From positions 299,574-363,573 of the forward strand of contig CAMYOL010000007.1 in assembly GCA_947260005.1 (NCBI GenBank): a stretch of DNA of 64,000 bases, read 5' to 3'. This stretch comes from an uncultured Ectothiorhodospiraceae bacterium. Its GTDB lineage: Bacteria; Pseudomonadota; Gammaproteobacteria; UBA6429; Thiohalophilaceae. Below the pieces are notes generated by a model. It was not told the origin of the DNA. It did no database searches and worked only from the letters and a program-made list of their open reading frames with translations. Below, in pieces: positions 8,972 through 18,365 of this stretch; position 1 is the stretch's first letter, and each line of letters starts with the position of its first letter. Position numbers and translations under genes: made by a program.

Positions 8972-9244
8972 ATGGATAATAAACGAAGAGAAAGTCGTCT
9001 ACCGATACAATTAGATGTTGAATTGGTTGCTGACGATAATAACGAGAGCTCATTACAAACACGCGACTTAAGTAATAGCGGTGTTTATCTTGAAAAAGGC
9101 GATAGCAACCTGCCCCCCGAAGGCACGATTGTGCACATCAGAATTAAAAACAATATGGGTGAAGGCGAGGCACCATTAGTCAAAGCACGCGTGGTGCGTG
9201 TCGATAACGACGGATTAGCACTTGCTTTTATCACCGATGACTGA
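8972..9244 (+). CDS. Single-domain PilZ protein
   Basis: 90 residues forming one PilZ beta-barrel, a cytoplasmic c-di-GMP receptor type. The N-terminal NKRRESRLPIQLDVEL carries the RRxxR-like binding arginines, and RDLSNSGVYLE supplies the D/NxSxxG motif. Both binding elements are present, so c-di-GMP binding is expected. With no output domain it probably acts on a partner protein. Its last eight bases overlap the start of the next gene, which points to translational coupling. Confidence 0.88.
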   Translation: MDNKRRESRLPIQLDVELVADDNNESSLQTRDLSNSGVYLEKGDSNLPPEGTIVHIRIKNNMGEGEAPLVKARVVRVDNDGLALAFITDD

Positions 9245-9887
9245 AGTAACTAACACTGACATCCATGTCATCCTGTTTACTACCCCGCATTGCGCCTATT
9301 GTCCGGGTGTCAGTAAAATTTTTACCGGACTGGATGAAAAAGGACTGCTTGCCAGATATGAAAAATATGACTTAACAACAGACACCTCTCTCGCCGAACA
9401 ATACAATGTCCGCTCTGTGCCGTGGTTTAAGATAAATGATCTGGAGTTTTTTGGTTCTCACAGCTCGGCAGAGATTGAATATTGGGTGACTCACGCAAAC
9501 AGCCCAGAAGGCATCCTTCGTTATATATCGGAAGCCCTGGAAGCCGGCCATCTCAAACAGATTGAACAGTTAATTCGTAAACACCCTGCCTGGTTAGAGA
9601 TCTCGCTTAACATTTTGGCGGATACGAACAGCCCGATACAGGCCCGCATTGGTTTGGGAGCCATCATAGAAGGGTTTGCCGGTGATAAAATATTGACGAC
9701 GATCTTGCCGAGCCTTGAGACATTCCTTAGTAATGAAGATCATCGAGTTCGTGCCGATGCCTGCCACTATTTAGGAATGATACCTTCGGTCAAATGTGAG
9801 GCCTTGTTAAAAACATGTTTGAGCGACGATCACCCTGAAGTACGAGAAGTCGCTGAAGATGGCCTCGAATTCATTCAGTCAAACTAA
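9237..9887 (+). CDS. Thioredoxin-fold protein fused to HEAT-like repeats
   Basis: 216 residues from an ATG that overlaps the preceding PilZ stop. The N-terminal thioredoxin-like fold has a CAYC redox motif at 19-22 (TTPHCAYCPG) and the cis-proline loop VRSVPWF. After about residue 100 come helical repeats of HEAT type (LETFLSNEDHRVRADACHYL, LLKTCLSDDHPEVREVAEDGL). No signal peptide, so cytoplasmic. The repeats probably bind a partner whose thiols are handled by the N-terminal domain; the partner is unknown. Confidence 0.82.
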   Translation: MTEVTNTDIHVILFTTPHCAYCPGVSKIFTGLDEKGLLARYEKYDLTTDTSLAEQYNVRSVPWFKINDLEFFGSHSSAEIEYWVTHANSPEGILRYISEALEAGHLKQIEQLIRKHPAWLEISLNILADTNSPIQARIGLGAIIEGFAGDKILTTILPSLETFLSNEDHRVRADACHYLGMIPSVKCEALLKTCLSDDHPEVREVAEDGLEFIQSN

Positions 9888-11966: not shown

Positions 11967-13292
11967 TTAAAATTTAATTAGCGGGAGTGAATAATCAAAA
12001 CTCATCATTTGTTGCTCAAGCATGGCATGAAAGACCACCTGCAAAAAATTATGATTGTGATCAATGCTTCTGGCAAATAAATAAACCACCTCTACCACAA
12101 GTGCATCAAATTTCTGTTGCAGATCTTCATCGGGTATTTCAGCTTGTTCAGATTTTTTCGGGTTAAGCAAATCCAGCATCTTTGGATGACTGGTGAGAAG
12201 GAATCGTAATATTGCAATCCGAATGCTTAACATGTGGATATAAACAAATGGATCAGGCATGCTAATGAACCACTCGCGCTGTAAACAGTTCGTTACATAA
12301 CGGGTTAAATAAACCTCGAGTTGCGCGCCATATTGAGAGTTAAGCAACTCCCAATCGGCCTGGAACCGTTGCCATAAAATATCAGGTGGAACATTCTCAC
12401 CAAACACATCAAAATCTTCAGAACGTTGTACATCAGTCTGGTAGTTTTCAAATATCTGCCCGGCTAACTTACTAAGCTTATCACTACCTTCATATTGTAT
12501 TCGCAGCTGTAAAATAGATTGAACAATGATCATAGCCACCGGCTCGGTGGTATTGAACTGAAAAAAATACTCGTCTAATTGTTTCTTGATTTCATCTTTA
12601 TTAATGCGCTTTATTTCTTCATCAATTAGTTTCAGTTTATCTTCACAGTCCTGTCGATAATTAGGAGCAAGGCGATAAGTAAAATTTGCCAGGAAATACA
12701 TTCTGGTTTCAAAAGAGTATTGTTCATCATTGATTAACTCAATTAACTGTGAATTAACATCGTTAAATTTTTGATGATAGAGATTATCAGTTAACCCAAG
12801 CCGATGGGCAATGGGAAAATCATCTCTTGGTAAGATAGACGTCGATATATTAGAAAATTTATAGTCATCCGAGGGCGAAAAGAGACAACGCCGAACCACT
12901 TCCGGGCACGATAAAGCGCCGGTCATTTCAGGCTTATCATTTCGTTGCGAAAATACTCTTGGAAAAAAAGTGCATATGTTACTTAACGGCTCTACGCCAA
13001 ACTCGGCATGAATATGACATAAACCATGTTGATTTAAAAAAGGGCAAAAACCGGATTCATTTACTTTTATATAGGCATAGTTACGTTCATTCGCATCTTC
13101 CTTGTCATATTTTTTTACATAGGTATCAAATGTGTTTTTTTGACTTGCATCGCCATTGAAGGCCTGCTCTAAAGATTTATAATGTTTTTCATCTAAACGG
13201 ATGTCCCAGTTTTGACAACAGGTATCTTCACAATCCCCACCCAGACATCTAAATTCATGCATATACGCAGGGGCGAGAAGTTTTTTAGACAT
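11967..13292 (-). CDS. fliB: FliB-type flagellin lysine N-methylase
   Basis: 441 residues. The N-terminal cysteine cluster CLGGDCEDTCC (Cys16-26) followed by FCPFL and LCHIH, and the overall length, match the FliB/YkgJ-like flagellin lysine methylase family. In Salmonella, FliB methylates surface lysines of flagellin. The cysteines suggest an Fe-S cluster and radical-type chemistry. No flagellin gene lies in this window, so the substrate is encoded elsewhere or is a different protein. The stop codon sits in an 11-base inverted repeat (11961-11983) with no T-run. Confidence 0.8.
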   Translation of the reverse strand: MSKKLLAPAYMHEFRCLGGDCEDTCCQNWDIRLDEKHYKSLEQAFNGDASQKNTFDTYVKKYDKEDANERNYAYIKVNESGFCPFLNQHGLCHIHAEFGVEPLSNICTFFPRVFSQRNDKPEMTGALSCPEVVRRCLFSPSDDYKFSNISTSILPRDDFPIAHRLGLTDNLYHQKFNDVNSQLIELINDEQYSFETRMYFLANFTYRLAPNYRQDCEDKLKLIDEEIKRINKDEIKKQLDEYFFQFNTTEPVAMIIVQSILQLRIQYEGSDKLSKLAGQIFENYQTDVQRSEDFDVFGENVPPDILWQRFQADWELLNSQYGAQLEVYLTRYVTNCLQREWFISMPDPFVYIHMLSIRIAILRFLLTSHPKMLDLLNPKKSEQAEIPDEDLQQKFDALVVEVVYLFARSIDHNHNFLQVVFHAMLEQQMMSFDYSLPLIKF

Positions 13293-13307: not shown

Positions 13308-14654
13308 CTAAAAGACAGAGTTTAGCTTCGTCGTTTCGGCTGAAGCGACAGGTTTATCACCAAAATCAACTAACACCATTCCGCAAAATTGATTTTTTTT
13401 GTAGATTTCAACCCGAAACAATTTCCCGTGTTTGTCAACTGAGAATTTCGATTTAATGTCACGCTTTGAAATCGGTAACCCATGTTCGCTAGCGTAACCT
13501 TTTTTAGTAAACCCTATAATATTTACACGATACCCATCCAACTGATTAACCTGGAAACGTTTATCAACCGCGACGATATCACCGAGCATAACCTGTTTAG
13601 TCACACCGTCGACCGATAGTGATATTGAATCGATACTGCTGTCAAAATCAAAGTACTGTGGTAATAATTTGGTAACCGAACGATTGCCGTAACGAACATT
13701 GTAATAACGTTTATTATCCAACACAGCAATTAATGGATTACTGCCACTAATCGTAAGCGGCTCACCTTTTTTCATTGGCACATATCGTAATCGATCACGC
13801 ACATTTCTCATATCAAAGAACATCTTTCGCTCATAGAGCGCCAATTTAACGTTGTTATCGATGCGATTTTTTACCGTTTTAATACTCAGCTCCATATCAC
13901 GTTCGTAGTTAATACCTAAATATTGCATAAAGCTTTCGATCAACTGTAAATGATAATAGGCACGATAATGAGTGCCAAACGATTTACTTGCCTCAATTCC
14001 AAATGCGGCTTTTCCATTTTGAATGGCATAATAAGTTAAGGTTTTTTCCATCTCGACGTTTCCTGATCGAGTCTCGGTATTTTTGATATGATAACGATGT
14101 TCCTTGTTTTTGATCCTTAGATTCGCTTGTTGCGTAATAATCCTGGCAATCGAATCCAGTCGACCATATCTCACTCCGTCCAACTCAGTTTGATCGATAA
14201 TCAAACTTTGTCCCCAACGTTGAGGTCCACGTAACTTATCCACGTATCTGGGACGATAAAAACCACTGCCGTCATGTAAATTTAATATAATATCGACTTG
14301 TTCATCTTTGATGATTGATTTGATTTTTTCGACTAACTTAAATTCAGGATCATTTTGACGAATACCTTTGAATTTCCGGTTCATGTCACCATGAACACCA
14401 CGTGAGCGTTTGATGATGCTTTCAAAATTCAGGTTCGGCACGACCCACACTTCACCGCTGTGAATAACATAATCGGTCACTAACAAAGAGGCCGCATTAA
14501 AACCGCCCGGCTCATCACCCTGTATTCCACCAATCACCAATAAGGTTGGTCCTGGTTGGACCGATTTATGTTTATGTAAGGTGAAGTCCCATTGTTGCGC
14601 CTGCACAAACAGACTCATGAACAAACCACTGCAACATAAAAACGTTCTAAACAT
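13308..14654 (-). CDS. Csd4-like M14/M99 peptidoglycan carboxypeptidase
   Basis: 448 residues with a signal peptide (LFMSLFVQAQ) and an M14-type catalytic domain. GGIQGDEPGGF gives Gln45 and Glu48, and LNLHDGSGF gives His127. This Gln/Glu/His zinc set and its spacing match Helicobacter Csd4, where I recall Gln46, Glu49 and His128; Glu221 in GIEASKSF fits the catalytic Glu. Csd4/Pgp1 trim peptidoglycan tripeptides to dipeptides and are needed for helical cell shape. The C-terminal ~190 residues are beta-rich. The gene overlaps the M15 peptidase gene by eight bases. Confidence 0.85.
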   Translation of the reverse strand: MFRTFLCCSGLFMSLFVQAQQWDFTLHKHKSVQPGPTLLVIGGIQGDEPGGFNAASLLVTDYVIHSGEVWVVPNLNFESIIKRSRGVHGDMNRKFKGIRQNDPEFKLVEKIKSIIKDEQVDIILNLHDGSGFYRPRYVDKLRGPQRWGQSLIIDQTELDGVRYGRLDSIARIITQQANLRIKNKEHRYHIKNTETRSGNVEMEKTLTYYAIQNGKAAFGIEASKSFGTHYRAYYHLQLIESFMQYLGINYERDMELSIKTVKNRIDNNVKLALYERKMFFDMRNVRDRLRYVPMKKGEPLTISGSNPLIAVLDNKRYYNVRYGNRSVTKLLPQYFDFDSSIDSISLSVDGVTKQVMLGDIVAVDKRFQVNQLDGYRVNIIGFTKKGYASEHGLPISKRDIKSKFSVDKHGKLFRVEIYKKNQFCGMVLVDFGDKPVASAETTKLNSVF

Positions 14655-15570
14655 CCCTGATCACCTTTATATGCCACGGTTCATGTCGAACGCCAAATGG
14701 ATTTGATTCAGGATAACGCTCGGCAATTAAACCCAAATCGGTCAATTGTTGGTGTATTTTTGTTTCCATGAAGGCACTGGTAAAATTTGCCGCGCCAAGC
14801 CCTTTTTGGCCGACATCAAAATCACCGATGCCGTGAAACGAATGTCCCGGCGGCGCTAACGAGCGAGCTGCGCGAGATAAATTGCCATCCGACTTATCCG
14901 CCTTAGCCATGAAGAGATGGAGTTGCTTAACGACACTGCGTATCCCGGAGGTTAAAATAAGATCATTACTGAGTTCTTTTTTTAGTTTTTGATACAACTT
15001 CAACGCTTCACCTTGATATAAATAGTGACCGCTACCGGCAATTTTTTTGACTTCTTTAACCACAATTTTGTCAGTTAGCTTTTCGGAAACTTTCTGGCCG
15101 AGAAATCCATAATTACTTGCATCATAAACATATAACGCTTCAATTAATGCGATCTCGCGTTTGCTAAATCGACCCACGACGGGATATCGCCTGGCATAGA
15201 CAATCGCAGAATCAAAACTGATTAAATTAAAATTGGCATAGCCAACCAGACGTTGTAAGCGGGTGAGGCGATTTAAAGTAGAACGTAAGAGCACCCTTTG
15301 ATGTTTGGATAAATAAATGTCATTGGCATAGTCCTGCTCGAAGTCCTTCGCTTTATTAACGGCATCTTTTACATGACTATCAAGCTGATAGCCTTGCTCT
15401 CGCTGAGAATGAGTCGCTAATGAAGGGCGGGTTGCCCCGGACACTTTTGGGGAAAGATTCGACCGGGATAGCGGACTGGCCTGTGCCTCCAGCATACCCA
15501 AACTGCTGAGAGACAAGCCACTAGTGAGACTGCTAATTAGCGCACCTGATATAAATTTACGTCTGTTCAT
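14647..15570 (-). CDS. Tat-exported M15 (VanY-like) D,D-carboxypeptidase
   Basis: 307 residues. It opens with NRRKFISGALISSL, a twin-arginine signal, so it should be exported folded. The C-terminal domain has the M15 zinc signature: GHSFHGIGDFDVG (His and Asp ligands) and HEPWHIKV (catalytic Glu and third His ligand). M15 enzymes remove terminal D-alanine or cut D,D bonds in peptidoglycan stems. It is the first gene of a two-gene unit with the Csd4-like enzyme, which would act later on the shortened stems. Confidence 0.87.
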   Translation of the reverse strand: MNRRKFISGALISSLTSGLSLSSLGMLEAQASPLSRSNLSPKVSGATRPSLATHSQREQGYQLDSHVKDAVNKAKDFEQDYANDIYLSKHQRVLLRSTLNRLTRLQRLVGYANFNLISFDSAIVYARRYPVVGRFSKREIALIEALYVYDASNYGFLGQKVSEKLTDKIVVKEVKKIAGSGHYLYQGEALKLYQKLKKELSNDLILTSGIRSVVKQLHLFMAKADKSDGNLSRAARSLAPPGHSFHGIGDFDVGQKGLGAANFTSAFMETKIHQQLTDLGLIAERYPESNPFGVRHEPWHIKVIRDV

Positions 15571-15673: not shown

Positions 15674-16045
15674 ATGGCAATTCTCTGTTTTGAGCACAAT
15701 TTTACATCGATGGACTCTGAATTTACCCAATTAATCCCCTTTGACCGGAATTATCAGCATGTCCAGTTTAGCGGATCCTTCGCTGGTCAGGGCTTAATCT
15801 GGGATGCGCACATCTACACACTTACCTACTATTTTCGTGAAATTAAAAATATCTCAGCAGCCAGATTAAACAGCCGCGCCTTCCTGGATGTCGGTGACAA
15901 CAATGAACATGGGCGAAAAATAGAAATTGGCCTACACTTACCTTATCTTGATCTGCCAAGCTTAAGAAAAACGATGATCATGGTTCGCCAATATAAACGG
16001 CTGAAACCAGGTCGATATGAGTTCGGTGAAACAATTATTATTTAA
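15674..16045 (+). CDS. Conserved unknown protein, paired with the ferredoxin fusion
   Basis: 123 residues, soluble and beta-rich by eye, with central segments TLTYYFREIKNISAARLNSR and IEIGLHLPYLDLPSLRKT. No known motif. An internal ATG (15710) is an alternative start. It ends six bases before the HTH-ferredoxin-reductase gene, so they are almost certainly one transcript and may act together. Function unknown. Confidence 0.75.
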   Translation: MAILCFEHNFTSMDSEFTQLIPFDRNYQHVQFSGSFAGQGLIWDAHIYTLTYYFREIKNISAARLNSRAFLDVGDNNEHGRKIEIGLHLPYLDLPSLRKTMIMVRQYKRLKPGRYEFGETIII

Positions 16046-16051
16046 GGATTT

Positions 16052-17533
16052 ATGTCTAGACTCGTTACGGTATCTCGCGCAGCCAAACTCGCTGGTGTTT
16101 CTCGCGGTAATCTACAAAAATACATTCGTGATGGAGTGATACAGAGTTTTGAAGGCATGGTGCGCTTACAGGACGTTGCTGAACACTTTCCCGACGTTAA
16201 CGCCAAACCCAATGACATCCTCGAAGCACTCGAACAAATTATGGATAATGCGGCCATCAAGGCGCGCAATCGTACCCCAACCATGCCACCTGACATGGAA
16301 ACCCTCGCCGCACGGGTCGCCATTCTTTCTGATGAGTTAGTTGAATCAAAGCTCGAAATCAGTATTTTTTATAATATTATTGACAAGCTCAAGACTCGAT
16401 TAAAACAATTTACCGATAACCATCCTGAGTCCACTGCGGCCATGCGTGAACTGCAAGGCTGGTTACTCAACGAAGTTGAAACCATATCGGATAAAAAGTT
16501 TGCGCAATATCCGATGATTGCGACCGACACGATTTTACGACTAGTGGCGGCGCAAATCCGACTGGAACCCAGCGGTCACGAATTTTTCGTTGAAGGTTCC
16601 GATAGCATCCTGGAGGCCGGTTTAAGCTCAGGCCTGGCCATGAACTACGGTTGTAGCAATGGCAATTGCGGCAAATGCAAAGCCAGAGTCATCTCTGGCG
16701 AAGTTAAAAAAATAAGACATCACGACTATGTGCTAAGCGAAAAAGATAAATTACAAGGATACATATTAAGTTGTTCAAACACTGCGGTCACCGACCTCGT
16801 CCTCGAGGCAGAAGAAGCCGGTAATGAAAATGATATCCCTAATCAGTCTATCTCCGCCTGGGTACGTAAGGTCACCCCGTTAAATGATTCTGTCGCTACG
16901 CTCAATATCAAAACACCTCGCACCCAACGGCTGCGCTTTCTGGCCGGGCAAACCGTTAATCTGGTCATCTCCGGAGTTGGCGCAAAGACCTTACATGTTG
17001 CCAGCTGCCCATGTGACGATATGAATTTACAGTTCCACTTCAATCATCATGACAGCGATGCCTTCAGCCAATATCTGGCTCAAGAGATAAAACCAAACGA
17101 TACGATTACCGTTGAAGGACCGGCCGGGCACTTTGTATTACATGAAGATGAGCCCAATCCAATTGTCTTTATCGCCTTTAATACGGGCTTTGCTCCCATC
17201 AAGAGTTTAATCGAGCATGCCTTAACACTTGATGTCACCGAACACATTCAACTCTATTGGTTAGTGCCTGGCCAGGACGATCTGTATATGCATAATCATT
17301 GTCGCTCGTGGGCGGATGCCTTTGAACTTTTTGACTACTACCCGCTTTGTTATGATGATTTGGACCCGGTCGAGTTATGCCTCGATAAATTGAATTCAAA
17401 CAATCCGGATACTGACGCACTGACTAATCATCACGTCTATATCGCCGGATCACAAAATGATATTACCAAAACAAAAAATGCCTTGCTCGAGCAAGGCATT
17501 CCTGAGGCTTCAATTTATATTGAAGCGATATAA
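16052..17533 (+). CDS. HTH + [2Fe-2S] ferredoxin + FNR-like reductase fusion
   Basis: 493 residues. Residues 5-50 form an excisionase/MerR-like helix-turn-helix (TVSRAAKLAGVSRGNLQKYI). A helical linker spans ~80-150. A plant-type ferredoxin domain follows, with Cys201, 206, 209 and 241 (C-x4-C-x2-C...C). From ~265 comes a ferredoxin-NAD(P) reductase-like module: FLAGQTVNLVI, EGPAGHF and NTGFAPIKSLIEH. The usual RxYS flavin motif reads HVAS, and the first Gly of GTGFAPIKS is Asn, so flavin or nucleotide binding may be altered. It could be a redox-sensing DNA-binding protein or a reductase with a structural HTH. Confidence 0.85.
   Translation: MSRLVTVSRAAKLAGVSRGNLQKYIRDGVIQSFEGMVRLQDVAEHFPDVNAKPNDILEALEQIMDNAAIKARNRTPTMPPDMETLAARVAILSDELVESKLEISIFYNIIDKLKTRLKQFTDNHPESTAAMRELQGWLLNEVETISDKKFAQYPMIATDTILRLVAAQIRLEPSGHEFFVEGSDSILEAGLSSGLAMNYGCSNGNCGKCKARVISGEVKKIRHHDYVLSEKDKLQGYILSCSNTAVTDLVLEAEEAGNENDIPNQSISAWVRKVTPLNDSVATLNIKTPRTQRLRFLAGQTVNLVISGVGAKTLHVASCPCDDMNLQFHFNHHDSDAFSQYLAQEIKPNDTITVEGPAGHFVLHEDEPNPIVFIAFNTGFAPIKSLIEHALTLDVTEHIQLYWLVPGQDDLYMHNHCRSWADAFELFDYYPLCYDDLDPVELCLDKLNSNNPDTDALTNHHVYIAGSQNDITKTKNALLEQGIPEASIYIEAI
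17477..17500 (-). terminator. Minus-strand terminator inside the convergent gene
   Basis: A perfect 24-base palindrome (AATGCCTTGCTC then GAGCAAGGCATT). Read on the minus strand it is followed by TTTTGTTTTGG. It fits an intrinsic terminator for the 100-residue gene at 17555-17857, yet it lies within the last 60 bases of the plus-strand fusion gene, so it also encodes protein there. Confidence 0.75.
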
Positions 17534-17554: not shown

Positions 17555-17857
17555 CTATTCTGCCGCTTTCTCCGCTTCCTCTATCCAGGGAGTCAGACCA
17601 GCAATCACTTTTTTAGCCTGATCGACACTGCTGATATTAAATTTTGACTTCGGGCGATAACTGCCTTCACGCTTCTGATAACGACGAATGGAAAATTTAG
17701 TCGGGCCAAATTGTTCATCCTTACGGTTCCAGTCCTGGTATTTAAACAAAATCGTCGACCAGGCGCCTTTTGTTAAGATGACTTTATCGAGCTCTTTAAC
17801 CAGCTGCTGACCATTTTCCTCATAATTCATAGTTATTTCATCGACTGTCTCAGCCAT
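17555..17857 (-). CDS. Small conserved cytoplasmic protein of unknown role
   Basis: 100 residues: VDEITMNYEENGQQLVKELD, then LTKGAWSTILFKYQDWNRKD, PTKFSIRRYQKREGSYRPKS and KFNISSVDQAKKVIAGLTPW. The regular, conserved-looking layout resembles small proteins I have seen in sulfur-metabolising and other proteobacteria, without an assigned function. No signal peptide or cysteines. It converges on the ferredoxin fusion gene, with a terminator inside that gene's 3' end. Confidence 0.78.
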   Translation of the reverse strand: MAETVDEITMNYEENGQQLVKELDKVILTKGAWSTILFKYQDWNRKDEQFGPTKFSIRRYQKREGSYRPKSKFNISSVDQAKKVIAGLTPWIEEAEKAAE

Positions 17858-17945: not shown

Positions 17946-18365
17946 TCAGGCGCTCCAGCGAGGAAAATTTGCGGCATATTTCTCAATCCATTCTCTGGCG
18001 GCCTGTTCGCCACTGAGCTGACGCCCTTCACGCAGCGCCATCTCACGCTTGTAATGCTCAATATGGCAGACCTGCTCAACCATTCGAGCGACAAATAGAT
18101 CGTCTTTGCGGATAAACTCAATCCCGATCACATAATGACCGTCTTCTAGACTACAGTGAGTCACCAGCCCCTGGGCTTCAAAAACCGGAGTAACCGTATC
18201 AATCTTTAACTTGATCGTCAGGCCCACCTGAACCGGTGACACCGATGTAAACGATAAACCGCCGTGACTGATGTTATTCAGCATTTGAGCATGATTGGTC
18301 ACTTCTGTACTGGTATTGTCAACCTGGATAGGGATATCAGAAGGATGTCGGATATAACTACGCAT
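17946..18365 (-). CDS. PilZ-domain protein
   Basis: 139 residues. MRSYIRHPSDIPIQV begins the PilZ fold, with only part of the N-terminal RxxxR motif (RSYIRH). The MLNNISHGGLSF segment provides the N-x-S-x-x-G binding motif. The last ~35 residues extend beyond the barrel as helices (MVEQVCHIEHYKREMALREG). It probably binds c-di-GMP in the cytoplasm and changes contacts with a partner. It stands alone, divergent from the flippase-like gene. Confidence 0.85.
   Translation of the reverse strand: MRSYIRHPSDIPIQVDNTSTEVTNHAQMLNNISHGGLSFTSVSPVQVGLTIKLKIDTVTPVFEAQGLVTHCSLEDGHYVIGIEFIRKDDLFVARMVEQVCHIEHYKREMALREGRQLSGEQAAREWIEKYAANFPRWSA

Follow-up and report, generated by a model that had tools for sequence, protein, structure and literature searches.

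The closest described counterparts of the locus analysed here are two peptidoglycan-trimming enzymes of family Peptidase M99, Csd4 of Helicobacter pylori, which gives Helicobacter its helical shape, and Pgp1 of Campylobacter jejuni, and the proteins Csd6 and Pgp2, which the accessible parts of the literature describe as LD-carboxypeptidases; Pgp2 is reported there to supply the substrate of Pgp1. Csd4 homologues have been placed, in the available text of two published accounts, either within the delta- and epsilonproteobacteria or chiefly in these groups, with a few extremophiles in addition. One of the sources on the enzyme, as far as its available text goes, calls the zinc-site signature QxxE-H strictly conserved in Csd4 homologues (PMC4220969), and helicity of H. 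pylori is reported to require the Gln (Chan et al. 2015).

Here we describe a Csd4-type gene of a gammaproteobacterium whose reading frame overlaps that of an upstream gene for a predicted zinc carboxypeptidase of family M15. Both lie in the window, by which we mean the whole stretch of 64,000 nucleotides that was analysed, and their coordinates are collected with those of the neighbouring genes in Table 1. Neither a link between Csd4-type and M15 enzymes nor a Csd4 in gammaproteobacteria was found in the open-licence literature, and either may be in print elsewhere; in the available text of PMC4398505, PMC9448923, PMC5335918 and PMC5077204, the string "M15" denotes only the lacZ allele of E. 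coli strains.

Table 1. Features of the M15-M99 locus in the window, and the Csd6-like gene found elsewhere in the host genome.
Feature	Position	Strand	Description
FliB-type flagellin lysine-N-methylase	11967..13292	-	211.3 bits (cut-off 85); 15 bases downstream of M99
Peptidase M99 gene	13308..14654	-	Csd4/Pgp1-type, predicted DL-carboxypeptidase; 448 aa; downstream gene of the pair
Overlap of M15 and M99 reading frames	14647..14654	-	8 bases; possible translational coupling
M15 (VanY/LdcB-fold) zinc carboxypeptidase, predicted	14647..15570	-	307 aa; upstream gene; twin-arginine N-terminus
Small gene	15674-16045	+	no Pfam match; near the pair, conserved in relatives
493-aa protein	16052-17533	+	2Fe-2S ferredoxin and FAD-binding domains; position upstream of the pair kept within the family
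Small gene	17555-17857	-	no Pfam match; near the pair, conserved in relatives
PilZ-domain gene	17946-18365	-	close to the pair
Csd6-like YkuD-NTF2 gene, host genome	G000:C55:20601-21413		467-aa frame; on a contig other than the pair's

The M99 product

The downstream gene of the pair encodes a true Csd4/Pgp1-type (Peptidase M99) protein. Its product matches the Pfam Peptidase_M99 catalytic domain at 268.9 bits (cut-off 27; E 6.5e-80) and the C-terminal Ig-like domain, Peptidase_M99_C, at 85.3 bits (cut-off 27). The HMM of the middle domain, the central beta-barrel, scores 16.7 bits, below its cut-off of 27.5; the predicted model has a three-domain layout and aligns with Csd4 over residues 23-432. 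A search of solved structures returned H. pylori Csd4 (E 7.6e-96, residues 34-431), and the AlphaFold model (mean pLDDT 90.5, 35-row alignment) superimposes on Csd4 (4wcl) with a Z of 47.6 and an rmsd of 2.4 Å over 407 residues at 38% identity, the next-best family being the succinylglutamate desuccinylases at Z 19.8. The Csd4-type identity proposed in the initial annotation is thus borne out by the Pfam match, the structure search and the model alike. The same can be said of the zinc set and catalytic glutamate it had named: the ligands Gln45, Glu48 and His127, the general base Glu221 and, in addition, the oxyanion Arg85 are all in place and align with Gln46, Glu49, His128, Glu222 and Arg86 of Csd4 as numbered in PMC4220969. 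In this comparison, run against Csd4, the likeness covers the entire mature protein and includes N378 and E390, which correspond to the Asn and Glu of the calcium site. What distinguishes the window gene from its Csd4/Pgp1 relatives is its setting, for it overlaps an M15 gene, precedes a FliB gene and belongs to a gammaproteobacterium.

The M15 partner

The upstream product matches Pfam VanY at 45.8 bits (cut-off 25). Neither this protein nor any of four further members scanned matches a Pfam family other than VanY, and the YkuD plus NTF2-like architecture of Csd6 and Pgp2 was not found in the window M15. Its N-terminus starts MNRRKFISG, with a twin arginine (R3 R4) found in every one of 24 aligned homologues; if any RR within residues 1-100 is accepted, 47 of the 48 distinct M15 sequences have the motif, and the remaining one is truncated by the end of its locus. 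The partner had been described at the outset as a Tat-exported M15 peptidase, and both the twin arginine and the VanY match are present, Tat export itself being a prediction. It had also been called translationally coupled to M99; the frames do overlap, and coupling is possible.

Residues from about 60 to 155 form a conserved helical N-terminal extension that matches no Pfam family. The model has a mean pLDDT of 78.9, with residues 1-61 below 50, and its structural comparison covers in practice residues 157-307. Over that part it resembles VanXYg (Z 11.3, 2.4 Å, 140 residues), VanYB (Z 10.4) and BaLdcB (Z 10.0 over 134 residues); Z ranges from 11.3 to 10.1 for the DD-peptidases and from 10.0 to 7.9 for LdcB, and is 3.6 for the one phage L-Ala-D-Glu peptidase among the matches. 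The active site is that of the LdcB/VanY/VanXY group (M15B, LAS superfamily), for which the available text of PMC4087270 gives the LdcB zinc ligands His153, Asp160 and His207, together with Glu204, Arg120, Gln125 and Ser151. The zinc triad H246, D252 and H300 and the catalytic E297 are invariant in 24 of 24 rows, and the full LdcB residue set is present (R211, Q216, S244, H246, D252, E297, W299 and H300, with Y286 also kept), R211 and Q216 being invariant in 24 of 24 homologues and S244 in at least 90%.

The window M15 differs from these enzymes in its extra N-terminal helical domain, its Tat-type N-terminus and its possible coupling to M99, as well as in two details of the active site. Its metal spacing, H-X5-D, is one residue shorter than the H-X6-D of LdcB and lies inside the LAS range H-X(3-6)-D given in PMC4087270, and, counted from the Glu, the S1' residue Tyr201 of LdcB has its counterpart in Val294, which is invariant across the M15 homologues (Ile in VanXYc, Tyr in BaLdcB). 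Residues that LdcB shares with DD enzymes do not discriminate between an LD and a DD bond. A further parallel, drawn by description, is LdcV of Vibrio cholerae, presented in the available text of PMC8649774 as an LAS-type LD-carboxypeptidase and thus a LAS zinc carboxypeptidase in gammaproteobacteria; LdcV serves recycling, whereas the window M15 carries a predicted export signal.

Distribution of the pair

Among the best 80 of 129 M99 loci from named genomes, 24 have M15 immediately upstream of M99; by the taxa given in the record titles, 18 of these are gammaproteobacterial, four epsilonproteobacterial (MAG loci L052, L059, L060 and L061) and two deltaproteobacterial (MAG loci L050 and L072). 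The arrangement holds for 18 of the 19 gammaproteobacterial loci in that set, and in the 19th (L046) M15 is found apart from M99, on a different contig of its genome (G068, evidently identical with G406); no M15 was found in the examined stretch of the remaining delta- and epsilonproteobacterial loci among the best 80. Binning errors are possible in MAGs, yet L059 and L060 come from different assemblies with common flanking genes. The initial annotation had set the M15 enzyme outside the known Helicobacter shape set; it is indeed foreign to the H. pylori set, but it does occur in the four epsilonproteobacterial MAG loci. The gap from M15 to M99 is -59 to +3 bases in 42 loci, measured from the first start codon and with some genomes represented twice.

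Closer to the host, 58 relatives were examined, 37 from its own family and 21 from others. M99 is present in 30 (29 over the cut-off; the M99 of G023 is a fragment, and that of G011, below the family cut-off, may not be an M99). All 30 are among the 37 members of the host's family, and M99 was found in none of the 21 relatives of other families and in none of 14 well-known control genomes. Strong M15 matches occur in 21 of the 37, every one of them M99-positive, with the M15 gene on the same contig and adjoining M99; a weak 22nd match, in G048, spans only model positions 193-286, and nine of the 30 M99-positive relatives have no M15 match. The two genes form a conserved module that was probably already present in the ancestor of the host's gammaproteobacterial family.

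A sample of 369 genomes, drawn evenly from the class, was scanned for M99 over the cut-off and for M15 at E 1e-20; at most six first-look M15 candidates were scored per genome, such that a few M15s may be missed. M99 was found in 13 genomes, M15 in 18 and both in nine, a co-occurrence with a Fisher p of 1e-10 when kinship is ignored. The two genes are adjacent in seven of the nine, in six families (f1, f43, f90, f102 twice, f125 and f154), and unlinked in two; four genomes have M99 without M15. A strict dependence of M15 on M99, which holds in the host's family (21 of 21), fails in the class, where nine of the 18 M15-bearing genomes have no M99, and these nine, with the two unlinked cases, indicate an independent role for M15 in such genomes. 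The orphan M15s are not monophyletic (seven changes among 48 rows). In two loci (L164 and L165) an orphan M15 adjoins a homologue of the window gene at 17555-17857, and in L164 a homologue of the window gene at 9222-9887 is also close by, a context suggesting that the same locus once held M99 and lost it. A homologue of the 17555-17857 gene also lies near an M99 without M15 (L179). No M15 match was found in 72,556 plasmid records.

Csd6 in the upstream slot

In 13 Sulfurimonas and Sulfuricurvum loci the position directly upstream of M99 is taken by Csd6, with gaps of -17 to +12 bases and, in L098, a split Csd6 frame. The one slot protein scanned has YkuD and Cds6_C domains and matches 4xzz, described as H. 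pylori Csd6, at E 1.8e-74. Csd6 also stands in tandem with a divergent M99 in two other gammaproteobacteria (L180 in G206 and L181 in G187); in G187 an unlinked M15 lies elsewhere. The divergent M99 branch comprises L180, L181 and L137, the last from a Desulfobacteraceae MAG genome (G064), where it is a second M99 in addition to that of an M15-M99 pair. Csd6, like Pgp2 and Bd1075 a YkuD-NTF2 LD-carboxypeptidase, resembles the window M15 in filling the same slot in Sulfurimonas and in the two gammaproteobacteria, but it is a cysteine YkuD enzyme where M15 is a zinc enzyme of unrelated family and chemistry, and hence a positional counterpart only.

A Csd6-like YkuD-NTF2 gene is also kept elsewhere in the genome in 17 of 20 M99-positive and one of five M99-negative members of the host's family (G000-G024; 17 of 19 and one of six if the doubtful G011 is counted as negative). 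These retained genes argue against a simple replacement of Csd6 by M15, a scenario weakened further by two Sulfurimonas MAG genomes (G058 and G059) that carry both Csd6-M99 and M15-M99, the Csd6 frame of G059 being interrupted by stops. Taken together, the retained genes and the genomes with both pairs suggest that M15 may perform a second LD step or a prior DD step.

The two partners also go with different zinc ligands in M99. The Gln of Csd4 is present in all 37 distinct M15-paired M99s, while 15 of the 17 Csd6-paired M99s have His in its place, likewise the residue at this position in ordinary M14 enzymes, and these 15 come from Sulfurimonas or Sulfuricurvum; the two gammaproteobacterial Csd6-paired M99s keep Gln. 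Where neither partner occurs in the examined stretch (n = 53), 51 M99s have Gln, one has His (L102, cut off upstream) and one is incomplete. The His-type M99s (L097-L110 and L051:7280-8581) mostly adjoin Csd6, and Malonomonas rubra (L051) has two M99 copies in tandem, one with Gln and one with His. Conservation of QxxE-H is therefore not strict in this wider M99 set.

FliB, flagellin and other neighbours

FliB and M99 are probably in the same operon. Of 29 host-family loci (L001-L029), 25 have FliB adjacent to M99, and two of the four misses end at the locus edge; FliB also adjoins M99 in a genome of another family (G155; L155 and L174); it was not found beside the delta- and epsilonproteobacterial M99 loci. 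This adjacency raises a possible link between wall trimming and the flagellum. Flagellin was found in 19 of 20 M99-positive versus one of five M99-negative host-family genomes examined (19 of 19 versus one of six with G011 as negative), and, outside the host's family, in eight of 15 genomes without M99. The flagellin and FliB context and the published distribution of homologues fit a predicted role in the shape of swimming cells. Bactofilin proved uninformative as a marker of a shape system, since it is present in 35 of 40 relatives, and for a role in defence there was no PADLOC match. The 493-aa protein has an N-terminal HTH match and an NAD-binding match, both below their cut-offs, and in another genome (G101, L179) a homologue of the PilZ gene shares 29 bases with the M99 frame as called.

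Function of the pair

We propose, with moderate confidence, that M15 and M99 form a consecutive peptidoglycan-trimming pair that removes first D-Ala and then mDAP, and that the local trimming would bend the cell. The M15 enzyme, to judge from its N-terminus, would be exported folded by the Tat system and would take the C-terminal D-Ala off the stem peptide, most likely converting tetrapeptide to tripeptide as an LD-carboxypeptidase. M99, presumably exported by Sec, would then act like Csd4 and take mDAP off the uncrosslinked tripeptide to leave a dipeptide. Stems so trimmed could no longer be cross-linked through mDAP, and by analogy with Helicobacter and Campylobacter such local trimming may bend the cell. 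Stepwise trimming of stems had been suggested from the outset, and it is the likely joint role, in keeping with the families, the active-site residues and the overlap of the genes. The bond cut by M15 is the less settled part: we give the LD assignment about an even chance, its main ground being that Csd6, an LD enzyme, occupies the same slot elsewhere; a DD bond is less probable, and some other bond less probable again.

Should M15 instead be a DD-carboxypeptidase, it would convert pentapeptide to tetrapeptide, the role that Csd3 has in H. pylori; the Csd6-like YkuD-NTF2 protein would then perform the LD step and M99 would finish. The Csd6-like genes favour this reading, as 17 of the 20 M99-positive genomes could draw their tripeptide from them and 13 of the 14 M15-M99 host-family genomes checked possess one; so do the structural matches of M15 to VanXY and VanY, which are no weaker than its matches to LdcB, and the Val at position 294, which is Ile in VanXYc and Tyr in BaLdcB. 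It leaves the presence of an LD enzyme in the same upstream slot of other genomes without explanation, however, and we consider it rather unlikely. A role in wall recycling, repair or nutrition, in which the pair would release D-Ala and mDAP in straight cells with no part in their shape, seems to us no more probable than that. The M15 genes without M99 in nine class genomes speak for it, as does the accessible literature, in which tests of M99 in cell shape were found for Helicobacter and Campylobacter only; against it, the Csd4 and Pgp1 papers, in their available text, put homologues mainly in curved or helical bacteria, and in the host's family M99 accompanies flagellin and adjoins FliB.

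MepK (YcbK) of E. coli is a Tat-exported M15 relative, a precedent that counts for an endopeptidase freeing stems for M99, whether MepK-like on 3-3 cross-links or ChiX/CwlK-like on L-Ala-D-Glu bonds; with VanY as the sole Pfam match of all five M15 proteins scanned and a poor structural match to the one phage L-Ala-D-Glu peptidase listed, this reading is improbable.

Origin of the gammaproteobacterial M99

Acquisition of M99 by gammaproteobacteria from epsilonproteobacteria, which the initial annotation had raised for a tree to decide, is not supported by the trees, and we regard it as improbable. In an 84-row tree, 39 gammaproteobacterial M99s form one group (SH-aLRT 95, starred), apart from which fall the two divergent Csd6-paired M99s; with these two left out, a thinned 66-row tree also places the gammaproteobacterial proteins on one side of a branch, with support 87 (not starred). 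Both were quick, bootstrap-free inferences. In neither do the epsilonproteobacterial rows enclose the gammaproteobacterial M99s, and the rows beside the gammaproteobacterial group in the 84-row tree are mainly deltaproteobacterial. These neighbours include L052 and H. pylori Csd4, itself a long branch of unsure place; their presence there favours transfer, as do the occurrence of the same pair in epsilonproteobacterial MAGs and the union of gammaproteobacterial and epsilonproteobacterial M99s, which is not rejected (p-AU 0.64).

Implications

A broader view, which we put forward as tentative, is that Csd4-type enzymes are preceded by a swappable feeder slot, filled either by Csd6, a cysteine YkuD enzyme, or by a Tat-type M15 subfamily of zinc enzymes with the LAS fold, two unrelated folds that would perform the same LD step. 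On this view M15-M99, in some lineages with FliB, might count as an independent second module for curvature that extends across gamma-, epsilon- and deltaproteobacteria, with some Sulfurimonas carrying both modules and both Gln-zinc and His-zinc forms of M99. The M15 subfamily with a Tat-type N-terminus appears to be undescribed and, if it is an LD-carboxypeptidase, two unrelated folds have served in one gene slot for wall trimming beside Csd4-type enzymes. The pair recurs in several bacterial groups and may therefore shape cells there too. The M15-M99 module offers a specific candidate for an enzyme set that makes curved or helical cells outside Helicobacter and Campylobacter.
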